The notes below the pieces were generated by a model, which saw only the letters and a list, made by a program, of their open reading frames with translations, ran no database searches and was not told the origin of the DNA. A stretch of 64,000 nt of DNA from Panagrolaimus kolymaensis. Taxonomy: Eukaryota; Nematoda; Chromadorea; Rhabditida; Panagrolaimidae. The stretch spans positions 9,238,001 through 9,302,000 of the forward strand of contig JAJQJQ010000004.1 in NCBI GenBank assembly GCA_028622995.1, written 5' to 3'. Position 1 is the first letter of the stretch, and each line of letters starts with the position of its first letter. Shown here one piece after another: positions 6,907-37,428 of this stretch. The position numbers were made by a program, and so were the translations under genes.

Positions 6907-7279
6907 CAACAAAAAGAAAAAAAAATGTTTGGATCGAGAATTTTTTTTCTTGAACAAACATTTTTAGTTTTTATCTAAAAATATTTTTTTGCCCAGCTAT
7001 TTCTCTTGCTCCAGTTTGTTTTACTTTTTGTTTTAAAGATTATTTAAGAATCGACGTAATCTTTAACAGTTATATAAAAGTTTTTTTTATTCGCAAGAGT
7101 TAAATATCAAATTATTTACAAAAAAAAAACAAAGTTATCCCAATTGCAGTTTTTTACTCTATCAAATAAAAAAGCAGGAAAGATGTCTCAGTTTAAAATT
7201 AAATTTTTCTTTTGAAAGACTAGAAAAAAAATTTACAAAAAGAAAACAAGGACAGTTTAAAAAAAAATGTTGAGATCAA
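6907..7279. other. Convergent spacer between membrane-protein copy 3 and GGT
   Basis: The two genes end tail to tail here. From about 7012 the CAGTTT-type motif of the neighbouring GGT introns already appears (7012, 7067, 7147, 7188, 7253), so the motif array reaches past the GGT stop codon into its 3' UTR or flank. Confidence 0.5.
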
Positions 7280-10200
7280 TTAATAACCTTCAGGATGCTG
7301 ATTGGATTTTCGACGATAATCGCCATTAGCATAAATATATCCATCGTTTTCATCCACAACTATCGCTTGAACAATCCCTTCAAAGCCAGTTGTGGGTTTG
7401 AATTTTTGGCCGAATTTGATTTCAAGATCTTTTAAAAGTTGCTGAAAAAAAAATGTTGAAGGATTTATTTTTCACTTATAAACATGAAAACACAGTTTAA
7501 ATAAAAATATATGATTTTTTATATATAAAAAAGATTATTGAATTTTAATGAAAAAACAATTACAAGTTAGAACTCAGTTTTTATGTTGAAAAAAAAATAG
7601 CAAAGGTAAGCGTATTTTATTAATTCGCCATAATCCAATATTTAACAGTTTTTAAGTCCACATAAAAAGAATGATCACAGTTTTCAAAGCTACAAAAAGT
7701 TTACAAATATTTTGTTTGCTAATTTTTTTTCTGAGAAAATTTTATATAATCAGCAAAATCAAGTAACGTTTTTATAAAAACTTTATTTTTCAAAAGTAAA
7801 TTAAATTTTTTTATTATATTTAGTTTAAAATTACACCAAAAAAACGTGTAATCCAGTTTTTTTGATTTCAGTAAAAAAATGCAAATTTGGGATTGTTTGA
7901 AGGAATAATACAGTGTTTTGCAGTTTTAAAAGACCAATTAAGGTTCATCAATAAGAAAAAAGACAATATTTTTTTTATTGTTTTGTTAATAACAGTTAAA
8001 TTAAAAATTATAAGAAGAAATAATTTTAAGGATTGCTTAATTTTTCAAAATATTTTTTTGATAACTGAATCACAACCTTCGCAGTTTTAAACAAACCATT
8101 TAGGTTTAATAAAAGCAAGCGAATTCGGTTTTATTTTTACAGTTATAAAAAATTATCATAAAAAAAGAAAAAATAATCTTGAAAATTATAAGATTCATCG
8201 ATTCCTTGTTTTTTAAAGGAAAGAAAATTTTTGTATGTGAAAATAATAAGGAGATCAACAGTTTTATAAGAAAAAAGTTCGATGAAAATTGGAACAGTTT
8301 AATTTTATTTTAAAAATATTTCTTCCTTACTTTTCAATAATCCAATTTATTTCAAAAAAAAATAAGGACGTTCAATGTCGATTATTTTTCTCAGCTTCAA
8401 TTAAAATTAAAACTTTCAATAGAAAAAATGACAAAAACAATTTTTTTAAATATTTTAAAAATTAATTTGGTTTTTAGGTTGATTATTAAAAATAGCAAAA
8501 AAATCTTAGTGCATTAATCTTTCCATCACCCTTAGGATTAAACAGTTTAATTTTTATACAAAACTTTTTATTTTTTTATTTTTTTCCCAAATGTTTCTAT
8601 CGCTCGCAGTTAAACCTTTTCTTCTTTTTAGTTTATTACAAAATAAAACTTACTGGAGGAGTATTATCTTCAAATTGAGTGATATCGGGTGTAAATTGAT
8701 TATGCAAAGATGGGGCATCGATTGCTTCTTTAATAGTTTCATTAAAGCATAAAACTCGAATAATTGGTCGAGAAACAGCTGAAATAATTTTAGATCCACC
8801 TGAAGCTCCAATAACCATTTTAACTTTTCCAGAATTTTGGTGGTAAATAATCATGGGAGCCATGGAACTCATGGGTCTTTTTCCAGGTTCAATAAAATTT
8901 GATTCTGATGGAGCAAAACCAAATCCATTGGCCATTCCGGGAGTTGAGAAATCATCCATTTCATCATTCCATATTATTCCAAGCGATGAAGCCACGGAAG
9001 CTCCAAACCATCTATTTATTGTGGTCGTGGCAGACACAGCATTTCCAAATTCATCCAATGCCGAAACATGAGAAGTTCCATGATCTTCTGGATGCACTTG
9101 ATTATTTCCACCATAATAATTTGTGGGTTGAGCATAATTTCTTAATCGGGAATATACTTCAGAAATATATTGTCTGGTCGTCATATTTTTAGCTAATTCA
9201 TAGGCTTCTGGAACAAAATCAGCATCCCCAAGTAAAGTTCTTTGGGCATATGCAAATTTTTGGAATTCTATGATGTCATGATAATATTCGGGGTTGTTGT
9301 AAAGCTAAAAATAACTCTGCTTAAAGGATCGCAGTTTAATTGAAATTTTTAGAAAATAAAATATTCTTTAAATTCAGTTTTTTTAAATTTAACTAAAAAA
9401 GTATCTGATCGCAACGAAATAGTTTTACTTTATTTTTACAAAAATTGAGTAAAGATTCTTCACCTTTTTCGATCCAGTTTTTTTTATTGTTTATGATACA
9501 CATTAAATGGAAAATGTTCTTTAGAAATTGGAGATGCTTGCCCAGTTAAAAAAATAGAAACAAAAAAATTTAATATGAGCTTGAAATTTATGCGCAAAAA
9601 AAATTTTTTACTCATAAAAATATTAAAGATTATTTTTTTATGGGTCGCAGTTTATAATTAAATTTTAAAGGAATAAAGTTTTCTAAATGTTTATTGCAAT
9701 TTCCAGTTTTTTAACGTCTATAAGATTTAAATGATATGGTAATCAATTTCGAGAACAACTCTCGCTGTTACAGTTTAAAAAAAAAAAGTTTTATTATTTG
9801 AAAAAATAAAATACAATAATTTGTTCCGAAATTAGTAAGCAAAAAACTTTAAATAAAGATTTATAGGCGTGTTCTTGCTCTACAGTTTCAAAAAAAATTA
9901 ATATTTTCTCGGTTTTAATAAAATCACCGAATTATCTTTGACAGTTTTCGTAAAATATTTCTAAATATGAAAAATTGCTATTTCATTTCTTTTGAAAATT
10001 TTTAAAATCTTATGGACAACTCCGTAGTGTTCAGTTTCTGAATTAATATATTAAACTATTGATTACGAAGAAGAATAACTTTTTACGCCCTCTTTTTTTA
10101 TGCTATCAGTTTTTTTTCAACTTAAATAAAAATAATTTTGCTTACCGCATTTATTGGGTTCCAAAGGTGTTTGTGATCACAATATCGAGCTAAAAGCGTG

Positions 10201-13200
10201 CGCATTGTAAGGCAGTTAAAAAATAATTTAAAATATACCTGTTCCCAAAGCCACGATGGATGAAGCCACAGCAAAACTTGCAGGTGGTGGAGGGCCACAC
10301 ATAACCAAATCTTCATGAAATGGATCCGTGACTAATGGGGTTTCATATATTTTTGGTTTATATGCTTCCAAATCTTCTTTGGATATTATTCCACCTGAAA
10401 ACTTTAGATGAAAAAAATTGTCGACAGTTTAATTTTCAAAAAAATAAAAAATCCGAGAGATGTCTCAAAAAATAAATATATTTCATAAATGTTTTAATTC
10501 AAAACAATTTTTGGAAGCATATCCAAAAAATGCAACAATCCAGTTTAAAAAAATGAAAAAAAAATATTTTAAAATTTGTGACAATTACAAACAGATATTA
10601 ATAAATTAAAAATGTAATATAAGGGTATCACCGAAATGAACGTAAGTAAACTAACGCAGTTTGACACAAAAAAAAAACAAAAAATAGAGAACCTCAAAAT
10701 TAAGTTCATGAAAAAATAAATATTAAGTTTTGTTCTGCTTTGGTTCATTACAGTTTTAGTTTATTATTTATTCGAAAATTTCGAAAATTAGTTTGATATA
10801 AAGTAAAAAAGTGCCTTGTAAGAATCAGTTTTTATTAATGTTTTCCAAAAATAAATATGATAAGTGGGCGTCAAGATGGCAGTTTGATAAAATTTTAATA
10901 AAATTATTTAAAAAAAAGACATTCTTTCATTATTTTTGAGATTTGTTCAATTTTTTCTTATTACCTCATCAAAAAATAAATTTTGGTTAAAAAAATATCT
11001 TCCAAATAAAGGTAAGCAAACTCAGTTTTTCAATATCTCATTCCAACTGAATTTCAGTTGCTCCAACAGCCATAAAAAACTGCAGTTTAATATTGTATAT
11101 TTTTATATATAAAAAAATTAGATAAAGGAAAAATTAATTGACTACAGTTTGATAATGTATTAAAATAAAATTATTATTTATAATTTTGGAGATGCATACC
11201 GAGCTCAGTTTTTTTATTTTTTATGAAAATTATCCTTTTTTTTATCCTTTTCATGCCAAAAATGGTTTCGAAAAAAAAACACCAGCAATTGGACAACCAG
11301 TTTACTTTTTTTAAAAGACGCTAAAATTTAGAAAAAGGCATATAAAAAACAAAACAGTTTAATAAACTTTAATCCATGGCTCTCTTACCATTTTCTTCAA
11401 ATTCTTTTCCCATAATTTCAGCAAATTTTCCATGATAAAATAATTCCACTGGGTCTTCACTATTTGCAATTTCCTCCAACGTATTTGCGAGTTGTGTTCG
11501 CTTTATAATATCTCCATACTCATAAACCATTCCGGTTTTGGGATTTATCCATTCTCTGAAATAAATATTATTATTTCCCTTATTTATATTAGATTGCAAT
11601 TTTTTTGGCTTTTAAAAATTGTAAAATATTTTTTTTATAAGTAATAATATTTAAAAATGATTTTATTCATCCAATCAAAATATTATACAGTTTTTTTAAT
11701 TCTTTTTTGTTTTCGTTCGTTTAAAACTCGTTAAGACAAAAAAAGGTTTATAAGTTGATTAGTTTTTAATAACCAAATTTAATTTTTACAAATCATGATT
11801 CTCTGCTGCAAACAGTTTTTTTATTTTAAAATAATAAAATTTTAAACAAGTTCGGAATACCTTTCAAGAAGAGAAGACAGTTTTTTCTTTATTAACAAAA
11901 TAAAATTCACTGCAAAGCTCGAAAAGAAAAAAGCTTTACAATTTCCAGTAGCTCTTTTTTTTGTCAAAATCTTAGCACAAAAATTAACGAAGAAAGTTTC
12001 TTCAGTTTTTATTTAAAAAATCACTTCAAACTTTTGATAATAAACCAACAACAAGATTTTGGTCCAGTTTAAAAACAAAAAAATATAAAAATAGCTGTTT
12101 TCGTAATTTCATTAATTTTATAAATTTTCATTTTTAAAAACCAAAAAATTATTTAAATTCTTTGTAACCCCACCCAAAGCATCTTCACAGTTTTTTAAAT
12201 TTTAAAATAAATATACTAAATACAAAACTCACTGCATGGAAGGAGTAACCAAAAATTGATGTTCTTTAACTTTTAAAGTTTTTCCTAAATATTCTGAAAT
12301 GGGTAGTCCATTTCTTGCCAAATCCACTGAAGGCATAACTAAATCTTTCCATGAAATCTTTCCACTTCCATGATTTTTAAATGCCACCCAATATCCAGCG
12401 ATTTCACCGGGCGTGGCTATGGCTCGCCAACCATATTTCGATGCAGCCGAATCATTGTGAAACATATCTTTTGTGGATTTTTTGGGCGCAGTTTCTCTTG
12501 CATCAATAACCAAACATTTTTCTGTGGTTCGATTATATAAAGTCATAATAAATCCTCCACCAATTCCAGAGCTTTGAGGATTGGTAACTCCAAGGCAAAA
12601 TAATGAAGCAATGGATGAATCAATGGCATTTCCACCTTTAATAAGAATATCCCGCCCTATTTCAGAACATAATCCATGATCACATGTAACGGCAGCTTTT
12701 TTAAATTTTCCAAGTAATGAATATGATGGTGGCGCCCATTCATATCGCCCCGTTTGATTATGTGGCCACTAAAAAACGGGAAATAAATATTTTTTAATTA
12801 ATTTTTATTGAATAAGAGTCAGTCATTAATTTCGCTTTCTTTATTTTATCGAAATAAAAAAATCAGCTCATCAATTATTATTACAGTTTTAATTAATTAT
12901 TTTTAAAAATTCAAAAAGAAAAAAAAGAAATTTAATAGGAAATTTTTGTTTCGATGCCAGTTTAATAGAAAAAAAGATAAGAAATAAATATCAACGGAAA
13001 ATATCATTCCAGACAGTTAAATATCTAAATTCTGGATTTAATCTCTTAAATAAGCTTGTAAAATATGAAAGATATAGTGTGAGAATGTTTGCAGTTTTAT
13101 TCCATTAAAAAATTTAATTTTCTACAGTTTTTTAAACTATTTATTAATCCTCCCAATAAAATGGCTTGACAGTTTATTAACTAGAAATGAAAAATTTAAG

Positions 13201-16200
13201 TCAATCAGTTTTTAATTCTCGTATATTTTTCCGTCATAAAAATGATATAATACATGATCCACAGTTTTTTTTAATTTAATTATTTTTAAAAATAAAAATT
13301 TAATTTTATAACCTTGTTTAATTTAGATAGTTATTTAAAAAAAAAATTTCCTAAATAATTGCAAAAAAGTCACAGTTTAAAAAATTATTTTTGTGTTTTA
13401 TTTAATCCAAAAAGGTATAGTGAAGTGCTCTAGCAAGTAGTTAAAAAAAATTATTTTTAACGCAACAAAAACTTTTCTATGCAGTTTAATTTTTTCAGAA
13501 AAAACTAATAACTTCAAGCTTCGCAGTTTTTCATTTAAAAAAAAAGGCATAAATCAGAATTTAACTTTTGACGATGAAAGCAAAATCAATGTTGCTTACA
13601 CTGTTTTCGACTATCCTCCCCAGCTAATTCTTTAAACCATTACAGTTTTTTCAATAAATTAATTTAAAAAAAAGAAATATTTTAATTATCGAATAAAACT
13701 GCCACAAGGATTATTAATTTCAAAAGTTGGCGAAAACAACTCCTGACAGTTAATGATAATAAAAAATTATGTCAAAATAAAAAACAGTTTTTACCTATCA
13801 CTGACAATAACTAATTAAAGCAAGAAATAAAAAAGCAAATATTTGCACAGCTTTAGTAAAACAATAAACAAAAAAACCAACGTTGCCAGTTTTATTTAAT
13901 AAAAAAAAAGAAGAATTTATTGTTAGAATGACAATAATAGGGATATATCCGTGTCGTCTTAATTATATCAGTTAAAAAAATTAAAACACCTTTTGGTGAT
14001 TCAGTTTAAACTATGAAAACTTTAAAAGCAAGCTGCTTCTCATTATTATAGCTAACTCATCTCAGATGAAGGGTAGGTAAAAGAAGGCAGTTTTAATATA
14101 TAAAAATGGAAAGAAATTTTGGTTAAAAATAAGAGGAAAAAATTAATAAATTTAAATGCAATTTTTTTAATACATTTTCCTTCTCCATTCTGCTCAGTTT
14201 TTTTTATATTTCAAGTAAATTCTATGGTAAGAATTAAAATGAAATATGAACCAAATTTAATTCGTTTACAGTTTTAAGAAAAAAGAGTAAGTTTCGGTAT
14301 TTCAAGGATCATTAGTTTAATATATAATTTTTGGCTTTTAAAAAAACTATAACGATCTCAAGCAGTTAAAAAACCCAAATATTTTGATTGTCTTAAAAAT
14401 TATTATAAGTTATAATATTTTTATAAGCTCGTAAAAGCTCTCAACAGTTAATAATAAAAAAAATTCAAGAAATAAAAACAGTTTTTACCAATCCCGATAA
14501 TAACTAATGCAAAAAATAAAAACGCAAATGTTTACATAGCTTTAAAACAAGAACAACGATGAACAGTTTTATGTATAAAAAAAGAAGATGCTTTAGTTTA
14601 ATTGACCATAAATGAAATGGGTTATATCGCTATCTTATTTATAACAGTTAAAAAAATTCCAAACCTTTTCTTAGTTTTCATTTTAGACAATATACAAATT
14701 TAAAAACACTCTTCTTTATTTTTTTAACCAACCCTTCCCTCTCAGTAAGAAGAAAACAGTTTTAACCATAAATAAAAAAAATTATATTAGCAGTTTGATA
14801 ATGACAGAAAAAAAAGGAAGAAGAAATTTAACTAATCTTGTTTCCTCAAAACATCAATTGGCACAGTTTTTTTTATATTTCAAGTAAATTTTAAGATTTA
14901 ACTTACATTTGTTTGATGAATGGGTGAACCATTAATTTGTGGAGCAATAATAAATATTATCATAGCCGAAATTGTGAATAACATGATTATAACCCCAATA
15001 ATTATGTTTATCACCAATCTAAAATAAACGCTTAAAAGGTTTAAACAAATATTTCTATTTAAAACAAAAAATCAAAAAAAATTTTCCCCGAAAAAAAAAC
15101 CCGTCAAACACATTTTTTTTTGAATAACCAAAAAAGACCCACGAAAAATGAAATCGAAAAAAAGAGGGGTCTTTTGTTTGATAGAAAACTAAAAAACGAA
15201 GAATTGTTTAAATAAGAAAAAGAAAAAGCACGGAAATGAAAGCAAATTCATTTTTTTGGTTGTGGAGGAAACCGGTCAGTCATCAGTCAGCAGCAGCAAC
15301 AATATAGCTTCCTTTATTCAATTTTTTGTTTTGTTTGTTATTTATCCATCCATCCCCGTAGGCGATTCCATTCAATCAATGTTACGTAATTTTTTTTAGC
15401 AAAGAAAGAAAAAAGTTAGAGATCATGATGATGGGATTTTTGGAAGATAAAGATTATTATCCAAAAAATTGATAATGATTTGAAATGACATTGAAAAAAA
15501 TGACCGATCTAATTTTTAAAGAAAAAACAAGAAAGAAATATTTTTTCATCCAACAAAATGGAGATGCAGTTTTACAAAAAAAAACGTTAGAAAAAATTTG
15601 TCCTTTTTTTCTGAATTAAAAAACACCCATTTTTATTTTTCTGGGTCAGGTCAAATATTTCTTGTACCTTTTTTTTCAACCAAATTGCATATGGTTCAGA
15701 AAAAATAATAGAAACGCCTATTCACAGTTAATGTTTTAATTTACCTCAATTTTATTATTCAACCGTTTTACAGGTTTATAGTTTTAGTAATCCAACCTTT
15801 TATTAAAAGCATAATTTCAGTTTATTAAAAGATAAAAGTATGGCAGTTTTTTATATAAACGAAATTTCTTTTCCTTTTTTTTCGCAGTGAACAAGAAGAT
15901 GCAGTTTTATATTTCAAAAAATGCTTGCACCAACTTACTCTAAACCCACCAATAAAAATGTTACTCAGTTTAAATTATAAATTTAATGATAATAAAAACG
16001 AAAGACAGTTTTTTAAACAAATTATAAAAGAATAAAAAATATTATCATGCTTTTTTCTGAAATGGAGATTTTTTTTCGCCGTTTTTTTCCAGATCTTAGA
16101 ACTGCGCGCAGTGTTTTTTTAATGTAAATTTAATTCCAAAATTACATTCAATAGACAGTTTATAATCTAAATTTCTCAAGAATTTCGTTCGACAGTTAAA

Positions 16201-17380
16201 AATAAATTTAAAAATAAAGTTGTGACCAAAAAAAAGAGAAAAGAAAGAGTATGTTTTTAGAAGTTAATAAAGTTGGGAAAAAAACAAAAAAACGTTATCA
16301 TAGCAAGTCCTCTTAAAGGGACACTTTCACCTGACTCAAATTTTTGCTTACGACATGTTTTACCTCTTAGCGCGAAAGTTCTTTGTCAAGTCCATTTCGA
16401 AAAGGTTTGTAAGCGTTGGTCAAACTTTGTGAAATTTTTGAAATTTTTTTCAAAGCTTGGCAAAGACTTTTTTGATCTCGAATGTATTTCTAAGTGACAT
16501 TGGAATCAATCATACAAACAAGGCAAAGAAAATTAATTTCAAACTTTTTTTATTCCAAGTTTTGTATTTTTTTAAAAGGAGTTTATAAAAAAAACAATTC
16601 TATGATGCAGTTTATCTAATTTGTATTATATTAAAAAACAACAACGCGCAGCCTATGTTGTCAAATTGCTGTATTTTTGGTAATAAAACCATGTTCTCCA
16701 GAAACATGTCTGTCGTCAGTTAAAAAAGAATGAAAAAGAATATTTTTTTCTTCACAGTTTTATTAGAGCCTTTTTAAGTTTGAAAATATACACTGATGAT
16801 TTTCATAGTTTTCATAAAAGCAGTGACAAGAAAAAAAATTATAGTTCACGAAGAAATTAACTTAAACAGTTTTAATCCATGTAACAGCCATGAAATAAAA
16901 AATCCAGTTTAACTTATTAATAAAATTTAAATACAGAAAAGGTCAAAGGCAGTTTAATTATTTCCAAAAAATAACAAAAAGTGGTGATACTTAAAATTTT
17001 GAGGCATGAAAAAAGATAAAATTAATTATTAATAATTTTGAATAAGAAAAATTCGAATACAGTTTTTATGTTTTTTTATCAGTAAAAATTTTGTATAGTA
17101 TATGACCGGCGTTTGTCAATAAACAGTTTATTAAAAATTAAACCTCATCGCTCTCAAGATAAATCAGTTTAAAAATAATTACAAAAAAGACTACTTACCT
17201 ATATTTATAACCATTTATTATTTCCATTGACCTTGTCGTCGTCGTCAATGAGGCCGTTGTGGTCGTTGATGGCCTATTATTATTATTTCCATAATCTTGT
17301 AGCTGGCGTTCCAAATCATATGGATTAATTTTATCACCGCGATTTCTTGAAGAAATAATATCCATTCGACTGTAAAACAT
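7280..17380 (-). CDS. Gamma-glutamyltransferase (glutathione hydrolase), type II membrane protein
   Basis: Cleaves and transfers the gamma-glutamyl group of glutathione at the outer cell surface; a self-processing Ntn hydrolase. Eight exons, in coding order: 17380-17199, 15018-14907, 12768-12233, 11555-11389, 10394-10239, 10189-10146, 9304-8654 and 7441-7280. All phases agree and give about 669 residues (human GGT1 is about 570; the excess is N-terminal). Order: a cytosolic Asn/Thr-rich N-terminus, one signal-anchor helix (about 62-86, LVINIIIGVIIMLFTISAMI), the large chain with GGNAIDSSIA and SSGIGGGFIM, then the autoprocessing site DHGTSHVS with nucleophile Thr about 476, FNDEMDDFS, and a C-terminus ending QHPEGY. 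The start could also be the Met 15 nt downstream (17365), directly after an acceptor-like TTTTACAG. Introns are long and full of the CAGTTT motif described separately. Confidence 0.9.
13747..14905. repeat. Diverged tandem duplication of about 670-700 bp inside GGT intron 2
   Basis: Six consecutive motif copies and their flanks recur in the same order at offsets of 698, 694, 677, 676, 669 and 668 bp (13747/14445, 13785/14479, 13887/14564, 13969/14645, 14088/14757, 14195/14863). Shared flanks include CAGTTTTTACC followed by GATAATAACTAAT-like text, and an identical 27-nt stretch (14195 and 14863) of CAG, eight T, then ATATTTCAAGTAAATT. The second copy ends at the splice donor of exon 2. The CAGTT cores are better kept than the DNA between them. 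Confidence 0.65.
16270..16500 (+). other. Less AT-rich insert in GGT intron 1, possible gene or transposon relic
   Basis: This block lacks the CAGTTT motif and has a more balanced base composition than its surroundings. The + frame opened at 16273 (TTG, no ATG) contains LPLSAKVLCQVHFEKVCKRW, which faintly resembles an F-box (LP...VCKRW). No terminal inverted repeats or target duplication are visible. It may be a fragment of an F-box gene or of a transposon; neither can be shown. Confidence 0.25.
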
Positions 17381-18930
17381 TTTTTGTTTTGTCTCCCACA
17401 AACAATTATTTCTACGAATTCCAATTTTTTTTTGTTGGAATAAAAAAATAAATAATTGGTAGTGACACTTTTTTTCTTTCTTTTTTTTGAGTAACAAACA
17501 GTTTCCGACTTTTTTCGACGAAAGGAACCCAAAAAAATTAGATTAATCCCATCCAACAAAGTGAAAGTGTCTGATTCATTTTTTTTTTGCGCATCCTCAT
17601 CCCAAAAACTCTTCGTTTTTTATTGTGTTAAAAAACCATTCAGTTTTTGCGTTTTTTTTTTGTCGAACAAATTAAAATTGAATAAAATCTTAGAAAAAAA
17701 ACTCTCAAGGAATAAACTCTTCTTTTTTTTGTTATCTTCGAAGAAAATGAAAGTGAAAAAAATGTTTTAAAAAAAGTATGTATACTAATTCGATGAAAGT
17801 TATTGCTGAGAATTGGAGGGATATTCCCAGACGTAAAAAATATTCGTCTGGAAGAAAGATACACGCAAACTCAGTTTTGATTGCTGCTAAATTCTCAAAA
17901 AACATGTCTGCTTATTTATCGAATTGGCTCAAATGATTTGTAAGAAAATTAGTTAATTAATAAAGCTTTGCATAAAAATGAAGAAGCAAGTATCTAAGCC
18001 AAATCTCGCATTACTAAATGTTTCAATGCTACACAGTTTATTAAAAAAAGTAAATCATAACTTCACTTAAAAAATTAGCTATCTAAAATCAATTAAAAAT
18101 TTTTTGCATTAACCAATAAAACAATCGATGCTTCTTGGAAGCCACAATTTTTTCAATAAAAAAAGGATGCGCTTGAAAAAAAAAATATCGAAGCTTTCAA
18201 ACTATAACTTCAAGAAAATGTGATTAAAAAAATACCAAACGCTTTTAGAAAAATTGTGTTCAGATACAGACGTTTTTAAAACTCGTAAAAAATTTAATTT
18301 AAAAAAATCATAACCAAACGAGGTCAAAAAAACGTTTTATGAAAGAAAACCATTTCAGAAAAATGAGAAGAAAAAAAATGTGATCAAACTCCCATAAAAA
18401 AAATCAAAAACGCCTTCCTCAATTTTTCCTTTAAAATTTAAACCGTTTTTAACCATATTATTAAATAAAATCTAGTTTTCGAAGAATAGAATGGTAATAA
18501 AAAAAACCATGAACGAATGTGTAATTTTCTATCAAAAAAAAATATTTTATAATACTTGGACGCTATCAAACATAAACAAAGATTATTATTTATTTTTCTA
18601 TCTTGAAAAAATGGCAAAGTTCAGTAAAGTAATCCCCAAATTATGTAGCTAAAAACAAAGTTCATTCAACTAAAAAAAGCTTTCAAAAACTTTTCAAAGT
18701 CATAAAAAAAAGCCCTTTGAATGTTGCGCCAATTACAGTAAAAATGCGCAGAAACACCGCAAAAACCGGAAGCAATGTTGCTCGCAACTTTGTCTTCCAT
18801 CAATCAAACTTTGTTTCATTCCTTCATTTTTTTCTTCTTCAACTTCGTGGAGCTTTGATTTTTTGATCATTGATTTCAGAAATTTGCTTAATTTTGATAT
18901 TGCTGCTGCTTTCAACAAACAACAACAACA
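17381..18930. other. Divergent intergenic region between GGT and the otubain gene
   Basis: Both genes are transcribed away from this 1.55-kb region, so it should hold both promoters. It is AT-rich with many poly-A and poly-T runs. Only scattered CAGTTT copies remain (17.64, 17.87, 18.03 kb). A short hairpin (CCAGACG and CGTCTGG, 17827-17851) is visible. A TGATTTCAG at about 18872-18880 followed by about 50 nt to the start codon may be a spliced-leader acceptor for the otubain gene. No coding exon supported. Confidence 0.45.
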
Positions 18931-26664: not shown

Positions 26665-29600
26665 TTATCGAACTTCAGCCACTTCATGATGAGTTTCCAT
26701 GGTTGGTGATAATCGTGTGCCACCATTGCTTGCAGTGGAAATTTTATGATGATGGGTATTATTGGTAAAATTTCGATGATGAGGAAATCGAGATGTTGAT
26801 GTTGCTGTTGTGGAATTATTTCCTGTGCCTCCTGTTGTTGGTGGTATTCCAAAATGATGACGATTATTAGAATTTGAATTTGGATTATTTGGGGATGAAC
26901 GATGATGATTGTTTTTTGATAAAATTTTTGATGGACCATTATTTTTCTCCGATGAAGTTGTCAATGGTTCACTCATTGAAGAATCATCTTCAAATACTTC
27001 TTCACATGCAAGTGATACTACATTATCGGTATCCGCTTCAGTTTCATCCGGCGAGGCATTATTGTTTTCACTGAAAAAATTTAGTTTATTTTTATAAAAA
27101 ACTGAGAAGAGCTTTGGTTTTTGGATTGACATTTAAGGATTTTAAGGAAAGAAAAAATACACAAATAAATGGATTCATGGACTTTTAACAATTTTTTTGG
27201 AGCACATATAAGACGATTACGGTAAGGAAAATTTGGACATGGCACATTTCTTTATTTAAAAAAAACATTTAAACTGCGGTTTCTCGTCTGAGCTTTATAA
27301 GAGAATTTTAAATTTTAGAGGGATAAAAAACTGTGGAAATTTGCAAACTTTGCAAGAAATTGGCCGCTTGTTTTTTTAAAAAAATGAAATTATTTTTTTC
27401 ATTTTTGCTCAAAAAACTGTAACAAATGGTTAATTTTGGCTTGAATAAAATCATTTTAAAATGTTTGTTTTTAACATTTTTGGAAAAAAACTGCAGAATT
27501 TGGAAGGGAGTGATAAAATTATTTTTTAAGGAAAATATAAAACTGTGAAGTTGCAGTTCTATTCAACTCAAAAAAATAAATTTATATGCATTTATTCTTA
27601 CCGATAATAATCAACGGATTCAGATTTAGCTCGATTTTTTCTTGAACGTATTAATCGATGAAATGAAGATCTCAAAGAATTTCCAAAGATAATAGGAACC
27701 GCGACGGACGAGGGTTCAGACGTGGCCGTTAATGGAGGTTCAGGTGAAGGACTTTCAGATACAGTACTAACAGTACGATTTTTAGGACGAAAACTGGAAA
27801 AAGGAAAGCTCGGTAAAAAGTTATAAGAAAAAGTTTTTCAAATAAATTAATTTTTGAAACTTAAAAAAAGCAAATAAAAAAAACTAAAGAAAAAAAAAAC
27901 TAAAAAAATGTTTATTGAAAAAGTTTACGAACCCTCGTGGAAGTGTATTTCTACGACGACGCTTTTGGGTGCTACCACCACAAGGAAGTGGAGGAAGGCT
28001 ACTAGCAATATTAAATTGATAAATTTGTAGAAAAAGTTGCAGAAAGCAAATACTGAAAAATAAAAAAAAACTAACAAAAATGTGCAAAAAAATAAAAATT
28101 AAAAAAGGGGAAAGAAGGGTATTAATAAAAAAGGAAATGAAACTGAATAGATAATACAAGGTTAGTAAATAAAGCAGTAGTAACTGTTAAAAGCATCACC
28201 AAATGATTTTTGAGAATAAATTAATTTTTTATTTATTAAAACTGTGAGGAAGGAATTTTTTAAATTTTTTTTTGGGTTTTTAAACTGTGTTGACGTTTTG
28301 TGGATGTTTTTTTATAACATAAAATTCAAACTGAACGGTAAACAAAAAAATTTAGTAAAAAAAATTAAAATTCTTTTTTACAATTTTTATATAATTAACT
28401 GTTGAAGGAGTTCCGTCTATTATCGGAAATTATTTTCTTTTTTAAATTAAAAAAAAACTGGACTTACAGTAAAATTTCACTGTAAAAAATTCTAATTTAT
28501 AATATTCCATTTTTTTAGAATTAAAACTGTTTTAAACATAAGTTTTACAAATTTTCGAGAGACTAATATGCATTCTCAAAAATCACATGAATTTTTATAA
28601 ATATAAAATAAACTGAAATTCAACATAAATTCCAACACACATAAAAAGAATAGGGAAAAGCAACATTAATATAAAACTGTCTTTTCAAAGAAAGTTGGAA
28701 GCTTACCTATAATTAAGGAATATTCCTTTTCTTGGAGTTGTAACGGATCCATTCGAGGAAGTATTCGAAGAGGCACTAACGGTCCTTGGACTGCTCAACC
28801 ACGAGGAAATGCTTCCGCCTGTTTGTCTTTTTCTTCGACATTCAGCCACTGCGGAATCTTTGCAGCATTCATGAACCACCAATCCACAATCCTTGCATTT
28901 ATATCCTTGACGAATTAAACCCCAAAGCTATAAATAAAAATTTTTTTTATTAAACTGTCTTTTTCAGAAGCATTTTGGCAAACCATTTTAGTGCAATGAG
29001 CGCAAAGAGTTGGAGTTAAAAAAGTTGTTTCATGAAAATTATGTTTGAATCCACGTCGAAAATCGGTGGATTGTTTATTCAAATTTATAAAATATGCTTT
29101 CATCTCCGATTTACTTATTTGACCGTCCCTGAAAATGATTAATATTAAAAATTATAACTGTAAAAGAATCCCATTTTTGTTTAATTTGGATTATTTTAAA
29201 TATAATGTTAAAAATTTATAATCATAAACTGCTTTATGTCCATCGACATTGGCGGGATAAAATTAATGAAAAAGTTTTATCATTCATTTATTGAAAAAAA
29301 ATGAGAAAAATGAGGAAATTATGGAATTATTATTTTATTGAAAACTGTTTCACTTATCAACTTTAAAAAAAACTTTATAGAATTATAAATTTTTTTAGCT
29401 AATTTAAAAAAAAACTGTGGCCTTTTTTTGAGGTGGTTTAATTTTATGGGGAAAAAACTGTTGCATCATTTGACATGCCACCACAAGGATTAAATAAAAT
29501 TAAATCGAGAAAATTTCACTGTATTCAAGAAGATCTCGTAAAAGCATGACAAATAATTTAAAACTTTTAGCAACAAAAGCTGTGGGATCTTTTACATTTT

Positions 29601-32600
29601 TGTGTAATCGATTTTATTTTTGAAAAAAAGCAAGCTTTGATTTAAATATCAAAAACATGAAAAAGGAAAATAAAAAAAACTTTTTTAATTTACCTTTTAA
29701 AGAAAGATTAAATAAATTTAAAAAAATGAATGTTTAACTGCAAAATCAAATAATTCAGTAAAAATCGTGAAAAAGATATTTAAATTTTTTAGAAAGAAAA
29801 AACTGAGTTATGGCTTCTTGGTATTAACAAAGAATGGTTTTCAAAATTTGGAAGAAATAAACTGTTTTACTAAAAATTTTGGTGAGAAAAAAAACTGTTT
29901 GAAAATAATATAAAAATCTTTTCTTTTTTTTTATAACTGGCAAAACCTTTAAATATTGGAATAATTTTAAAAATAAACATTTTTTGTAAAAAAATATTTA
30001 ATGGATGGCATTGACACGATTATAGGGTCTAAGAAAAAAGACAAACACATAGAATTATTAAAAACTGAATCTGTTTGTTTTTTGATATTAAAATACCGCA
30101 AAATTTATTTTTTTTTCAACTTATAAAACTGTCATTTTAGAATTCCTTCTATTTGGTTATTTACTTTTTAATAAAAAAAACTGAATAAAATTTAAAAAAT
30201 GCAAATTAAATTTTTAACTGTCTACCATTGATAAAAGACACAAAAAAGATTGAAATATTTTTTTCAAAATTTATGCGGGAAAAAACTGTCTTTTATGAAA
30301 AGTTTGAGCAAAATAAAAACTGGATCATTCATAATCAATTCGATTTTTTTATCAATGTTTTAAAAAAATATTGAATCTATGAAAAAAAACTGGGATTACT
30401 GATGATGAATGGCTAAAATTATATATTTGTAAAAAAGAAAAACTAACCGATCTGCATCAATTGCAACAAAAGGATCGATGAAAGGAAAATTTCCAACAAT
30501 TTGTTCAAATTCTGCTTTAGAAATATATGAATCTCGATCATGATCATAATGCTTAAATACTGCATCCACCATGGCGGACACATGTTTGTTAACTGTGTCG
30601 GAATCGGGTTGTTGACAAACTCCACTGGCCCAATCCGCAAAAACGATGGATTTCGAAGAACTTGATTGAAAATTTAGCAAAGTTTTTGGTTCTCTTTTTA
30701 GTGATAAATCATAAATATCATTTTCATTATATGTAATATCAAAAGAAACTTTAAGGGTATTAATTAAATCCATATTAGGTTCCATAAAATTATGAGCTGC
30801 TCGATTTACACCCAAAAAATAGGTTAGCAAATTTGCAAGTTGAAAGAATCGTTTAAGACTAATGGTTCCAGTTTTATCAAAACTTGGCCCATTTCCATTC
30901 CAAGCAATTATATCTTTAAGATGGATACCCATAATAGGAATTTTAAATTTATTTTTAGTTGTGGATTCCAAAATATATTTCCGATATAAACCAAAATTTG
31001 AATGATTTGATAAAAGTTGAGTCAATGAATTTAAGTCCTTTCGAGTTTCATGAGATAAACACGAATGAGTTTTAGTTAATCGTGATATATTTGAATGTGT
31101 AACCCCACCAATCACCGCCATTAAAGTATTAAAATTATTTAATTTCCTTAAATGTTTTCCAACATTCACAAACTTTGTGATTATTTCTGCTCGCTGCTTT
31201 GGAAGAGATTTAGAGAGAATCATGCATTGAACCCATGATGAAATGCTCTATAAAAAAAATATTAAATTAAAACTGTCTTGAAGAACTTCCTCGAAGAAAG
31301 AAAACTGGAAAGAAAGATATCCGCGTAAATGTATATACAAAAATCTTTTAATATGAAAATTTTCTTAAATAAGCTAGAATAATTTTTTTAAACTGTCATT
31401 ATCAATTACAGATGTTTTTGATAAGTATGTCCATAAAAATTTTTAAAACTGAATATTAAACATTCTTTGTTTAATTAAATGTAGAAATATTTAATTTCAG
31501 AAACATTTTTTCGATATTTATTATTTAACTGTCTTTTTGGTATTTTGGGCAGTTTTATTTTAAAGCTATCTTAATAATGGAAAGGTTTATTTTATAAAAA
31601 TAACTGGAAACTTTTCATTTTTTTATAGATTAAACTGCGTAAAGATTTTTTAAATGGTTTTTGAATTAAGAAAAAAGTCTTATATAAAATTTCTATTAAA
31701 AGTGTGGCAAGAGAGTGAACAAAAATATTTATTAACTAACTGTGATGTAGTTGGGTAATGGCATATTTTATTTTTTTAAAGAACATATTTTTAGTTAAAA
31801 CTGTCTTAGTATTAAGAAGGGTGCTATAATTTTTTTTACATAAAACTGTATCGACTATTGTTTGTTTAGTATCGCAAAATTTTTAAGCGCTTTAAAAAGA
31901 AATAAATTGTCTTTTGCAGTAGGGTTCCGACGATTCCCCGAAATCGGGGATTTTCCCCGATTCCCCGGCCCGGGGAAACTCCCCGATTCCCCGTCCCCGG
32001 CCGATTCGGTTCCCCGGACGGGGATTCCCCGACTCCACTTCCCAAGTCGGGGAATCCCCGACTCCCCGTCCCCGGCCCATTTTTTATTTCGGGGATAAAT
32101 ATTTAATTTTTAAACATGAGATTTGCTTTAAATAACCTCTCACCAATACTAATTAAGGATAAATATGCTATAATTAACACACAAAAAAAATTTTTTTCCT
32201 TCAAAAATTAACATTAAAAATTTTTCGGGGAATTCCCCGGTGAATTTTTGAATTTCGGGGATTCCCCGATTCCCCGTCCCCGACGAATGCACTCCCCGGC
32301 CGGGGAATTCCCCGACTCAAAATCCATTTTCGGGGATTCCCCGTTCCCCGACTTTTTTCCATTTCGGGGAATCGTCGGAACCCTATTTTGCAGACATTGG
32401 GTAGGGAAGGAAAACTTTAGATTTGTTTATATTTTGATATTTTTTTATTAACTGCTTAACGTTTTTTTTGAACCAGCATAAATCATGGTTTTTATATTTT
32501 ATAAACTGCCATTGGTGTTTTTCAACAATATTTGCATCATGGTAATAAATTTTGATTTTTATTCAAACTGATTCTTCATCCACAAAGCTACTTGCTTTTA

Positions 32601-35600
32601 GAAAAATAAAAATTTTCCCCCAAAAGAAGATATCACAATAAAAATAACTGTGCCACATAGCTTTATTTTGGATAGTATGTTTTTTTAGTTTTAGGTAGCT
32701 TTTTTAACTTTGAAAAACTGTCTGCCATAAAAATTTTTAGGAATATTTGTAAAATAGCAATATTTTTTCGATTTTTTAAAACTGGATTCATGATGTTTTT
32801 TGGAAAAAATAAAATAATAAACTTTTTTTGATCGCAAAAAAATCAATAATATGAAAATAAATAACTGTGCTTCCGGTAGTAAAGGCTTTATTTTTAATTT
32901 CAAGAAACTGCAACAAGGGTTTTTGCAACTATTAAATTATTTGCCTCTCCAATAAAAAAAGAAAATAAAACTGTTTGGATCAAACATTTGGTGAAGTTAA
33001 AACTTACATTAAAAACTGTAATAGACTTCTCCAAAATTGGAGTGGAATTTAATTTTCCAGCTTTAATATATTTTTTTATTTCTGGAATCGTTACTCGACT
33101 TAAAGCTTTATAATCGATGTGGCTCATGGAATTTGAAATATCTTCGGGACTCCATTGTTCAAAGCATAATGAAACATGGCGGGAAACTGGGTTTCTAACT
33201 GATACATTTCGAAGCCAAGCATATGAGGGACTAAAAAAATCAGGGGATTATTTTTTTTCTGTCAAAAAAAATTAAAACTGCGTTTTGTGTTTTTTCGTTT
33301 TGGGTGTTTAAAACTGCGTAAAGACAATTTTAAGGATGGAAAACTTACACGGAGCTAACATCTAATTCATTGATTGCAGCTTCATCAATTTCATCATCAA
33401 TGGTCATTTTTTTAAGTCTCTCCACTAATTTACATAATTGTGCATGAGCATCAAAATGAACAGGGAAATCACGAATCCAAAATCCTATGGCATAACATAT
33501 TTTTGTTCCAAGTTCATCGCATTCTTCCTGGAAAAAAGAGTAAAGTTAATATTATCTTTTTTTATTAAACTGGGAGAGACCGAGTAGAAGGGAAAAAATT
33601 AAAATATATTTTGTCATTTTTTAATTTTTAACTGTTTCGAAATGTTCACCTTTGATATATTTTTCGACGATGATTTCAAAAATAGGCTTTTGTGGTTTTA
33701 TTTTTTATCTCTTAAATTTTTTTTAAACTGTGCTCTAAATTGCAATGATTCCAAAAAGGTTAACACTTTTTTCATTATTTTTATTTTAACTGTATCAATG
33801 GATTTCTATTCAATTTTTTATTATTATTATTTTTCTTGAGGAAAAACTTTTCTTTAAACAGCAAATTTTAAAACTGGAGAAAATGAAAAAAAGGATATTA
33901 AGAATTATTTTAATTTTTAACTGAGATGGGATAACTAAATCGAAGGTTTTTTGCATTTTTTTCTTTTGCAAAATTTCTCATTTTTTCCTGCAAACCCAAA
34001 TCTTTCACACAAAAAAAAAATAGCGATAAATCATCTTAAAATTAAACACCATTTATAAAGACAACAAAAGCTCAGCTGGATGTCTGTCTTCTAACTAACT
34101 AGGCTACATTTATGCAAAAAATGCAAAATGAAAGATGATCAAAGATTCATCTTTTCTATTCTTTTTTTATATTTTAAACTGCTCGGATGTGTGTTTGGTG
34201 TTGTTGCAGAACACATTGCTATTTGGTTTATTTTAAGAAATCCAAAAAAAAATATTAAAACTGTTGCTTGGCTACGAATTTTTCTTTTCTTATAGAGAAT
34301 TTTTTGTTTTTGTTTAACTGCACAGATTTTTGATAATTTGGGATAACTGCATATCGTTAAAAATATTGTTCCCATTTTTTGAGCGATCAAAATCAACTTT
34401 TCAAGAAATAAAAAAAAGATGTTGGAGATCCTTTTTTAGAAAACTGGATTCCTTAAAATAAAAGTCAAATGGTGAAAGTCATTAATTATTTTAAAGAAAA
34501 CTGAGAAAGAAGAGAAGCGAGAGAAAGATAAACTTGAACTTCTTTCGATTAATGGCTATTAATTACTTTTTTTTATTATCACTTTTTAAAACAAACTTTC
34601 GCGGATTTTTTTTTTCATTATATTTTTACTGCGCGGAAGGAACAAAAGTTAAAAAGCTTTTGAATTTTATTTAATTTTATTTTATTATAAAACTGCGATG
34701 TTGATTAAATACATTTTTATAAATTTAAAACTGCCAACAGGTGGTGCCGATACGTGTATGCACGCTTTATTTTGAAAACTGTTTTCCGTTATTTTCGGAG
34801 TTTATTAAAAGAAAATATTTTTACACAAAAACTACGACGTTTTTCCTTTTTTTTATCCCCGAATATAAACTGACCACGATCGTTTTTTGCAAGAACTGTT
34901 TGGAAATTTTCCTTACATTCTGAATTAATAAATTTTTTATAAAAAATATATTTAACACGTTTAAATAGATTATACCGATTTTTGTCGCTTTCTTGAAACT
35001 GCCTTATCATTTGAATATTTTTTTAATTCAAAATTTTCAGAATCAAAAAATGCGACTCTTCATTTTAATTTTCTTATTTTCATCTTTTTCAACCCTTTTA
35101 TTAGCACAACAATTGGCACATAACAGCCTCTTCCCCATGGCTCCCTTGCCACATCTTCCAATGGCTCCCTTGCCCCATTTACCCCTGGCTACGTTCCCGC
35201 CTTTTCCTATGCCCACTGCGCTTCACACACTGCCTCAATTCCCAATGATGCCAGGAGCAGCTGGATTTCCAACTGTAGCACCATTACCAATGCCAACATT
35301 CCATACTCTTCCACCATTTACTCCTCCACCGCCCATTCCATTCACCCCGGTTCCACCGGGGAGAGCCATGGCTCCAGTTCAAGTTAGATATGACCCTTCA
35401 CCTCCAAGAAGACAAATAAATTATCAAAATCCTAATTTTGCTTGGAGAGAAATCCCCAAAACTCGGCCATATCAATCGCCAGATCGTTATCAACCCATAA
35501 ACTTTTTCCATCCATCCGCAATCGATCAAAATGTTGGATATGAAAATGATATCGGTCATATTTGGTATCTATGTACCACGGGAAATTGTGGGGGAAGGGG

Positions 35601-37428
35601 AAAAAAATAAAAATAAAACTGTATTTTAACAAATAAAAGAAATTTTTTCAATTATTAAAACTGAGTCGTGGCGTGATATTTTCATTTTTTATATTTACAA
35701 AACTGAAGGAACGGCTATGTCCATTTTTTAAATTATCAAAGAAAATTTTTTTTATATTTAAAGAAACTGCATTTTCGCTATTATTAAACTTGGCCTTCGC
35801 TGTGTATTTTAAAGTTTAATTTTTTTTAGATTGTATCACAATTTTAGAAAAAAAACTTTGGAAGACGAAAATAATCTAAATTATAACAGTAAAAAAAAAA
35901 GAAATATTATGTAACACAAAACTGTCAGGAGTGCCATTTGAATTAAAAATTAAACAAAAACTTATTAGCACAAAAATTTTAAATTCTTTTAATTTTTTAA
36001 ACATAAAGTAACTGAATTGACGGTCTTCATAATAATTATGACTTAAAACCAATATTTTATAAAACGAGAAAATTAAATATAACTGGAAATAACTTTGATT
36101 ATTTTAAATTATAAAATAAGCATAAAACTGGTTTTAATCAATATTAATGATTGATAAACTGTATTGTTTGGTGGTTTGGGTATTTAGTTTTAAAAATTAC
36201 GAGCTTCGCGTTTAATGCTTTATGATAAAACTGTAAGGCTTTTTGAAGCCCAAAAATATTCTCTTTTAAAATGAGTTATTCAATTTTTTTTTTATTTAAC
36301 TGGCTATCGATATCTTTCGGGGTTTAATTTTTTTAAATTTTAATAAATTTTTGTTTGTATTTTTTTAAACCAAAAAATCAATAAAAAGGTCAAAGGCCAA
36401 CAAACCTGATAAAGGGCAATAAATTGGGCCATTAATTCGGTGGTTTCCATAAGCCATTCACCAATCATAAATAAACAATGAGGGAAATCATTTAGAGGTT
36501 CACCATGGTCATCTAAAACAAAAAATCAATATTTAACTGAGTACTTTTTTTAAAGGGGGTAAAAAACTGACACAAATATTAATAAAATAAGAAAAAAAAA
36601 TTTTGTAATTAAACAAAGTTAATTTTTTCTTATAAAAAAAGGGAAAGAATGAAATTTTTTTTAGAAAACTGTTTAACATATTGCTTTTTTAATTTTTTGA
36701 AAAACTTTTCTATAAATATTCTTATTTATCTAATCAATAAAAAAAACTGTAGAAGTTTGATAACAGTTTATAAAACGAAAATATACGAAACAAATCAAAA
36801 TATCGATTTATAAAACTGACAAGGGAACGGTCAGACATGTAAGTGAGATTTCGATATTTTGTTTAGCCCAAAATATTATTTAGCATATTTTATAACATAT
36901 CCCAAAATCTTAGCGGCGAATGGAAAGATGGTCTAAAGTTACAAGTCCTCAAAGTTTCAAATCATCAACTGGAAAACTCAATGAGTCAAAAAGGTCCTAC
37001 GGGGAAACCCTGTGAGTCAAAAAGGCCCAATAGGGTTTTCCAGTTGATGATTTGAAACTTTGAGGACTTGTAACTTTAGACCATCTTTCCATTCGCCGCT
37101 AAGATTTTGGGATATGTTATAAAATATGCTAAATAATATTTTGGGCTAAACAAAATATCGAAATCTCACTTACATGTCTGACCGTTCCCTTGTGAGTTGA
37201 AATTCTTTCAGTCCCATTTTTTGGGTTCAAAAAGGGCTTTATTTTTATGTTCATCAAATAAAAGTTATTAAAAAAACTGGCACTACCTTTATCTGGTTGG
37301 AAATAAAAATAAATATAAAAAATCTTACCAAAACTTTCGGCACATAATCGCACAAGTTTCCTTGCATCTAATAATTCTTCAGCTGAATCCTTGGAACAAC
37401 TTGGCATAGAAAATTTATCACAATGCAT
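26665..37428 (-). CDS. rgef-1: RasGRP-type guanine nucleotide exchange factor
   Basis: Diacylglycerol/calcium-regulated exchange factor for Ras/Rap GTPases, mostly neuronal in worms. Ten exons in coding order: 37428-37329, 36512-36406, 33527-33349, 33230-33008, 31247-30448, 29128-28984, 28927-28707, 28001-27933, 27793-27602, 27070-26665; phases agree, 813 residues. Domains: RasGEF N/REM about 10-130, CDC25 about 165-400 (QRAEIITKF, LNNFNTLMAVIGGVTHSNIS, PIMGIHLKDI), two EF-hands about 430-485 (first DHDRDSYISKAEF, second DADRDGQISKSEM), then a C1 domain (about 499-548) with all His/Cys ligands in H-X12-C-X2-C-X13-C-X2-C-X4-H-X2-C-X7-C spacing. The last 260 residues are Ser/Asn/His-rich and basic. 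Start ATG 37428 matches the beginning of the REM homology. Introns are long, motif-rich, and contain a nested gene and two mobile elements. Donors GTTTGT, GTTTGC and GTTCGT are used beside GTAAG. Confidence 0.92.
31920..32385. mobile_element. hAT-like non-autonomous element (MITE), GC-rich
   Basis: A 466-bp insert in a RasGRP intron, flanked by the 8-bp direct repeat TTTTGCAG (31912-31919 and 32386-32393). The ends are inverted: TAGGGTTCCGACGATTCC on the left and its complement on the right. The arms are packed with CCCCGATTCCCCG-type short repeats that make it by far the most GC-rich DNA in the window, around an AT-rich core (about 32095-32225). An 8-bp duplication with TAGGG-type ends fits the hAT superfamily. 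No transposase is encoded. Confidence 0.85.
35050..35610 (+). CDS. Secreted proline-rich protein nested in a RasGRP intron
   Basis: Single exon, 186 residues, on the strand opposite to RasGRP inside its 33528-36405 intron. A signal peptide (MRLFILIFLFSSFSTLLLAQ) is followed by tandem MAPLPHLP repeats, a long Pro/Met/Phe/Leu-rich stretch with PPFTPPPPIPFTPVPP, a basic segment (YDPSPPRRQINYQNPNFAWR), and a C-terminus with two cysteines (LCTTGNC) ending GGRGKK. TTTTCAG ends 10 nt before the ATG, a likely spliced-leader or UTR-intron acceptor. The base composition is much less AT-rich than the flanks, which supports real coding. Matrix, cuticle or eggshell role is possible from composition; no family recognised. 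Confidence 0.72.
   Translation: MRLFILIFLFSSFSTLLLAQQLAHNSLFPMAPLPHLPMAPLPHLPLATFPPFPMPTALHTLPQFPMMPGAAGFPTVAPLPMPTFHTLPPFTPPPPIPFTPVPPGRAMAPVQVRYDPSPPRRQINYQNPNFAWREIPKTRPYQSPDRYQPINFFHPSAIDQNVGYENDIGHIWYLCTTGNCGGRGKK
36820..37192. mobile_element. Foldback element with 158-bp perfect inverted arms
   Basis: Left arm 36820-36977 and right arm 37035-37192 appear identical as inverted copies over 158 bp; ends read CAAGGGAACGGTCAGACATG inward. The 57-bp spacer holds two direct copies of GAGTCAAAAAGG. A 3-bp direct repeat TGA flanks it (36817-36819 and 37193-37195), which would be a short target duplication. No coding capacity. It sits in the first RasGRP coding intron, between 36513 and 37328. 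The superfamily is unclear: a 3-bp duplication occurs in PIF/Harbinger and CACTA elements, but the TWA preference of the former is not met. Confidence 0.82.

Follow-up and report, generated by a model that had tools for sequence, protein, structure and literature searches.

Type I piRNA (PIWI-interacting RNA) genes, the source of the 21U-RNAs of clade V nematodes and Plectus, are thousands of tiny units, each joining a shared motif to a unique guide, and they lie either in two megabase clusters, as in C. elegans, or in introns in both orientations, as in Pristionchus; their promoter features are conserved while their guides change rapidly (PMC6436959, PMC9683057). In clade IV nematodes, according to the literature, PRG-1/PIWI is missing and no piRNAs have been detected; the species named in respect of piRNAs include Panagrellus redivivus (PMC4323106, PMC6436959). 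Among the nematodes of clades III and IV, the sequences described here could explain for one lineage how transposons are held in check without piRNAs. They were found in a 64-kb stretch of DNA, called here the window (C3:9,238,001-9,302,000), from the permafrost nematode Panagrolaimus kolymaensis (clade IV), whose genome was scanned in full (265.8 Mb in 807 contigs). They form arrays of the hexamer WAACTG (CAGTT[T/A] on the complementary strand), which abuts a stretch of 20 nucleotides that differs from unit to unit (N20). The arrays are like type I piRNA genes in consisting of thousands of tiny units that combine a common motif with a unique word, in lying in large clusters and in introns in both orientations, and in pairing a conserved motif with a fast-changing sequence. 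We argue that, in this lineage reported to be without PIWI and piRNAs, they are probably minimal small-RNA genes that function as piRNA genes do in other nematodes.

Arrays of a constant hexamer and a variable 20-mer

The initial annotation of the window described a strand-pure array of CAGTT[T/A] in the introns of a gene encoding gamma-glutamyltransferase (GGT), and most of that description held. Its count in 12,880-14,870, 28 copies on the plus strand and one on the minus, was reproduced exactly, with the reverse match at 13,696 (13,699 in the annotation). The whole of this array, array 1, has 95 copies against 3, and a second array in the opposite orientation, array 2, has 152 against 4. 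The expectation of one or two copies by chance agrees with a third-order Markov model whose training data exclude the arrays: it gives 0.96 per strand in the 2-kb stretch and 5.6 for array 1, with maxima of 5 and 12, each among 200 simulations. Training on both strands of the array itself raises these expectations to 11 and 33 (maxima 21 and 52), and the observed 28 and 95 lie far above every model. Rather than many other hexamers being equally dense or biased, the most strand-biased k-mers of the array 1 region include or overlap CAGTT, poly-A and a few A/T-rich words showing weaker, separate biases. Nor is the array a simple satellite, as had been recognized: 1,658 distinct 20-mers occur among 1,750 array sites, and none of the 12 short rows of tandem repeats in the window accounts for the arrays. 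What the annotation overlooked is that GGT lies on the minus strand, with CAGTT antisense to it, and that the window holds the second, opposite array. Array 2 covers a RasGEF/EF-hand gene, on the minus strand as well, to which CAGTT is sense. The features are as follows.

Array 1, 7,012-17,170, minus strand: 95 units, the minus strand reading AT-rich DNA, WAACTG, N20 (plus strand CAGTT[T/A])
Array 2, 27,099-44,271, plus strand: 152 units, the plus strand reading AT-rich DNA, WAACTG, N20 (minus strand CAGTT[T/A]); over the RasGEF/EF-hand gene
Open frame with GGT exon, 8,636-9,301, minus strand: matches positions 253-466 of Pfam PF01019
Open frame with GGT exon, 11,369-11,608, minus strand: Pfam match; exon about 11,376-11,553, splice sites by eye
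Open frame with GGT exon, 12,229-12,765, minus strand: matches positions 1-140 of PF01019
Probable first GGT coding exon, 17,195-17,365, minus strand: by eye; overlapping frames 17,195-17,539 and 17,245-17,616 have no Pfam match
Open frame with RasGEF and EF-hand matches, 30,396-31,244, minus strand: exon or exons of the array 2 host gene

The unit is defined by a profile of the 1,750 array sites, drawn from the window and from another sampled stretch and aligned on CAGTT[T/A]. On the WAACTG strand it reads AT-rich DNA, WAACTG, N20 and AT-rich DNA again. Mean GC fraction is 0.177 in the 25 bp on the motif side, 0.302 in N20 and 0.218 in the 20 bp beyond N20; at the far edge of N20 there is a step from a mean of 0.30 over positions -20 to -1 to 0.23 at -21, and on the other side, beyond CAGTT, positions +6 to +20 are strongly AT-rich and poor in G. 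The far end of N20 prefers GG on the WAACTG strand, and there are weak base preferences within it. Spacing is irregular (median gap 73 nt), with gaps below 26 nt, the length of WAACTG plus N20, being rare (25 of 1,745). The pattern CAGTTTN8CAGTTT is accordingly no commoner than its control (97 matches and 100), as the minimum spacing predicts. To a distance of 60 nt, the base profile of the 1,750 sites shows no second positional motif. Hairpin genes resembling those of microRNAs were considered and set aside: among the first 600 of the 1,750 units, the mean minimum free energy of 50-nt segments was -2.9 (-3.2 on the other strand), compared with -2.8 in controls.

Beyond the window, triples of the motif at gaps of 20-50 nt number 6,945 genome-wide, against 642 for the reversed pattern. 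The sampled arrays have 137 triples for their 1,750 sites, and at that rate the genome-wide triple count extrapolates to about 80,500 sites in all, or 27,000 per pseudohaplotype. A narrower pattern, the CAGTTA triple, has 83 matches against 76 for its control, a count that is uninformative in itself, and only its locations were used: by an eye tally, 68 of the 83 fall in zones of six contigs (C3, C5, C18, C20, C23 and C42), and several of the remaining 15 resemble, again by eye, copies of simple or dispersed repeats. The zone on C3 runs from 7.06 Mb to near the end of the contig, although an array at C3:6.78 Mb carries the region further down, and that on C5 spans 0.25-3.4 Mb. Homeologs of a GGT exon lie on C18 and C42 (97 and 95% identity). 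The six contigs look like two regions, each in three homeologous copies, with look-alike matches suggesting the second region to be that of C5, C20 and C23.

Strand-pure blocks span 10-45 kb wherever sampled. In 180 contiguous kb at C3:7.05-7.23 Mb, blocks of 12-45 kb (the last truncated where the stretch ends) are nearly strand-pure, and orientation flips from one to the next. This orientation is independent of the host gene. Among the six host genes with a domain match over the cut-off, WAACTG is sense to four (GGT, PLC-beta, an MFS transporter and a metallophosphatase, the last barely over at 22.1 against 21.5) and antisense to two (RasGEF and a BAH-domain gene); matches under the cut-off (DUF6773, WLS) were left uncounted, and 10 of 20 frames compared outside the window had no match. 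The 180-kb stretch contains, at C3:7,143,228-7,173,293, a tandem duplication of roughly 15 kb that includes a BAH-domain gene and its array; the copies share 98.8% identity over 9.6 kb and 83-90% elsewhere.

The array of the initial annotation is therefore non-random, strand-pure, not a satellite and, in this part of the window, confined to the introns and body of GGT, but it is not an element of that gene alone: similar blocks recur elsewhere in the genome in either orientation to their hosts, and the hexamer forms just the invariant edge of a larger unit that carries a 20-nt variable word. The fit to GGT and the sparing of its neighbours were correctly seen. Pfam matches in three minus-strand frames, together with exons placed by eye (the first near 17.2-17.4 kb, the last near 7.28-7.44 kb), span array 1, which occupies the introns; the exons contain one motif site in 1,858 bp (their limits partly by eye), and the mapped genes at 17.5-26.5 kb are without an array. 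One of these, at 18.9-20.5 kb, encodes an otubain-family peptidase whose N-terminal part apparently includes a zf-UBP zinc finger, judging from adjacent open frames on the same strand; its introns are short, by eye. The window has no Rfam family at gathering score and no tRNA in a search with bacterial settings. Elsewhere in the genome, two contigs besides the mitochondrial one (17,467 bp) carry COX1-like pieces: C13 has a short one (1,850,368-1,853,589), and C328, 28.5 kb long, has two.

Divergence of the unit between homeologs and paralogs

The assembly is triploid (PMC10374039), and its cuticle-collagen domains, of which there are at least 150 (150 of 229 candidates scored), often come in sets of three contigs, as befits the genome of a triploid nematode. 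Array 1 was aligned over 7.9 kb with its two homeologs. The filter left 59 and 44 of the 72 intronic sites, with 13 and 28 excluded for local identity below 0.70 or closeness to an end. N20 differs at about 21-24% of positions, the flanks at 9-13%, CAGTT at 4% (21 of 510) and the sixth base at none of 100, with borders between -21 and -20 and between -1 and 0. The ratio of N20 to flank divergence is 2.2 (bootstrap 1.86-2.58, 103 unit comparisons). The excess is found for A/T bases alone (17%, against 7-9% elsewhere in the introns) and for G/C bases alone (31-38%, against 16-25%), and N20 also exceeds adjacent non-coding DNA outside the array, for which the corresponding figures are 8-10% and 13-16%; such DNA diverges by 9.5-11.8% on average and by 1.4-15.5% according to segment. 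All 24 substitution classes from the two homeologs are raised in N20, by factors of 1.2 to 3.6. Because of indels, which are also commoner in N20, and loss of register across it, the test was repeated on gap-free units, where the ratio was still near 2 (1.87 in 27 units and 2.11 in 25).

Paralog pairs within C3:7.05-7.23 Mb behave similarly, with 19.2% divergence in N20, 10.0% in the near flank, 13.1% in other DNA and 4.5% in the motif (pairs counted from both sides), and a gap-free ratio of 1.86 (1.36-2.49, 37 units). The motif itself is retained intact in 88 of the 103 homeolog comparisons, as against 113 of 239 permuted hexamers and 141 of 277 of their complements. A conserved motif beside a fast-changing 20-mer, as in piRNA genes, is thus found between homeologs and between paralogs, though not in the very recent duplication considered below.

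Within array 1, segments at about 13,960-14,030, 14,640-14,890 and 16,470-17,050 are identical or nearly so to a homeologous stretch (97.4% over 584 bp in one case). They sit in introns that are otherwise 12-16% diverged, as would result from recent gene conversion between homeologs.

Small-RNA genes and the alternatives

A constant element joined to a unique, fast-changing word of fixed length, in tens of thousands of copies set in oriented blocks, has the appearance of a library of guide-RNA genes. We infer that each CAGTT[T/A] would mark one very small non-coding RNA gene, for which about 25 bp of AT-rich DNA on the motif side (GC 0.18) would serve as promoter, WAACTG as initiator, N20 as the guide unique to that unit, and the AT-rich DNA past N20 (0.22) as a region of pausing or termination. 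Transcription, in the direction from motif to N20, would begin in AACTG and yield a short RNA, which after trimming would measure about 22 nt (perhaps 5'-UG-N20) and be loaded onto a non-PIWI Argonaute. At an estimated 27,000 or so guides per pseudohaplotype, the whole may serve the germline as a repertoire directed against foreign transcripts, much as the 21U piRNAs of clade V are. Since the motif makes the set of guides predictable from sequence, the idea can be tested by existing small-RNA methods.

Other explanations account for part of these observations. The sites might be bound by a sequence-specific protein, for example one that organizes or pairs chromosomes, the 20 nt being part of a long footprint. 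Nematodes do have non-coding motif arrays, PATCs (periodic An/Tn clusters) and pairing centres, and the pairing centres of C. elegans are arrays of sites for chromosome-pairing proteins, although their motifs are longer and lack a variable 20-mer. The conserved motif, the minimum spacing, the large clustered zones on few contigs and the weak base preferences inside N20 would suit such a role, yet a contacted footprint should change more slowly than its surroundings, whereas N20 changes about twice as fast as its flanks, and binding sites have no need of an orientation held constant over tens of kilobases; we consider this explanation unlikely. The way in which the sites fill introns and avoid exons would be expected of signals for splicing or other processing of the host transcript, but a signal in RNA must be sense, and the orientation to the host is mixed. 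Such a role also leaves the N20 block unaccounted for, as it does the neighbouring multi-intron gene without sites, and it is hardly credible. Very improbable, too, is that the arrays are decayed tandem repeats or remnants of transposons of which the motif alone is still recognizable. Segmental duplications do occur in one sampled stretch, and they are taken to account for the close pairs among N20s (129, as against 5 in a column shuffle), but N20s are no more alike than 20-mers from the flanks, which give 177 such pairs; besides the irregular spacing, decay does not produce a motif more conserved and an N20 less conserved than the DNA around them.

A variant of the small-RNA explanation, included in the probability we give it, has the same genes transcribed in reverse, with N20 as the 5' part of the RNA and CAGTTT as its 3' end or terminator. 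The bias towards T after CAGTT (0.80 and 0.59 T at +5 and +6) speaks for it. It is next to CAGTTT, however, that AT content is highest, as expected of a promoter (GC 0.18 in 25 bp, compared with 0.22 in the 20 bp beyond N20), and between homeologs, though not in paralogs, the sharper border is that at the motif. On balance we judge the reverse direction unlikely.

Several observations weigh against minimal small-RNA genes in either direction, beginning with the rate of N20. In the anchored units, the far flank is in register in just 18 of 53 comparisons with C18 and 15 of 46 with C42. The 18 from C18 show less divergence in N20 (7.5%) than in the downstream flank (13.9%), while the 15 from C42 show more (22% and 16%); identical stretches are common between the C18 copy and array 1, and this gapless comparison indicates that length changes add to the apparent difference in N20. 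In the 9.6-kb duplication of 98.8% identity, N20 has 31 changes in 3,558 positions and the remainder 145 in 15,562 (45 in 4,625 for flanks, 100 in 10,937 for other DNA), where about 65 would be expected in N20 at a steady two-fold rate; pairs were counted from both sides, and the independent changes are about half as many. Counted from one side and without gaps, the figures are 9 in 1,760 and 20 in 3,517. That N20 is no faster here argues against a local hotspot of mutation and for selection acting over longer times, though gene conversion could blur the comparison. Given the wide range of divergence among non-coding segments outside the array, an N20 that is neutral between constrained flanks would be a possible alternative to one under selection. 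In C. briggsae and C. elegans, according to the authors, single piRNA sequences may lack positive selection (PMC9683057). Targets were not in evidence: near-matches to N20 (at most two mismatches) in 312 kb numbered 2,001 including the sites themselves, fewer than the 2,442 and 2,249 of flank controls, though targets may lie outside the 312 kb searched. There is no 5'-U signature in the units beyond the fixed motif. For the Strongyloides ratti small RNAs discussed below, no upstream motif was found (PMC9203780), whereas that of the arrays is near-invariant. Lastly, two Piwi-domain pieces, of at least 143 in the genome (130 of 249 candidates scored, five read), were compared with solved structures, and both scored higher with AGO than with PIWI.

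Several of the Piwi-domain matches lie close together on one contig. Closely similar AGO-like sequences are found in the pieces L038-L041, of which L038 and L041 look allelic, and in matches around C7:2.367-2.379 Mb and C1:9.571-9.579 Mb. This AGO-like cluster is possibly a lineage-specific expansion of Argonautes and a candidate partner for the putative array RNAs.

Taken together, the arrays have the look of a large set of small-RNA genes that has apparently gone unreported. Among the open-licence papers listed in our searches of PubMed Central, we came across none that describes such arrays, links an AACTG motif to small RNAs or sequences small RNAs in Panagrolaimus; the letters AACTG in PMC6436959 are a chance match within a construct. 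Whatever its cause, a 20-nt payload that changes about two-fold faster than its surroundings, with a conserved motif on one side and ordinary DNA on the other, in many thousands of copies, is an unusual signal of evolution. If the units are small-RNA genes, they could represent either an independent origin or the hidden survival of motif-driven guide-RNA genes. More tentatively, and with less confidence than we attach to small-RNA genes as such, an animal clade without PIWI may have rebuilt a convergent 'piRNA' system, with some 27,000 intronic guide-RNA genes per genome copy, a promoter that is neither Ruby nor SNAPc, and diversifying selection on 20-nt guides.

Relation to described nematode small RNAs

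The clearest difference from type I piRNA genes lies in the motif. Those genes carry the Ruby motif, CTGTTTCA with its GTTTC core, some 40 nt upstream, whereas WAACTG abuts the 20-mer. In the 54 nt upstream of the 1,750 units CTGTTTCA matches four times, and GTTTC is not enriched there (68 occurrences, against 96 downstream). Because the defining upstream motif is absent, we do not assign the arrays to the type I family, from which they differ also in being strand-pure over tens of kilobases. The Ruby motif is thought to derive from SNAPc-dependent promoters of small nuclear RNA (snRNA) genes, themselves promoters of short RNAs (PMC6436959). A promoter of the SNAPc type for the arrays is nonetheless unsupported: U2 genes, the only snRNA genes compared, carry a different element, GTTYATGGTGTGT, starting 60 bp upstream in all 10 regions read (of 15 U2 matches), and AACTG occurs in none of those 10 regions and CAGTT in one, with no sharing of the proximal element.

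In other respects the likeness is close. The initial annotation knew of no described intron element of this form, but the piRNA genes of Pristionchus sit in introns, sense and antisense about equally (PMC6436959). The GC-richer N20 followed by AT-rich DNA also matches the pausing signature of nematode piRNA loci, in which a GC-richer body precedes AT-rich DNA (PMC6436959).

The nearest comparison within clade IV is Strongyloides ratti, which has 21-22U RNAs with a 5'-U, a 5'-monophosphate and AT-rich DNA upstream; their loci overlap on the same strand and form clusters measuring 1 and 2.7 Mb (PMC9203780). The set comprises 1,887 sequences, which overlap heavily and occupy both strands of a cluster (PMC9203780), whereas the arrays consist of discrete units, an estimated 27,000 per pseudohaplotype. 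Common to the two are the clade, the AT-rich upstream DNA and the same-strand clusters, and an RNA of the putative form 5'-UG-N20, 22 nt long and beginning with U, would fit among the 21-22U RNAs of S. ratti (PMC9203780).

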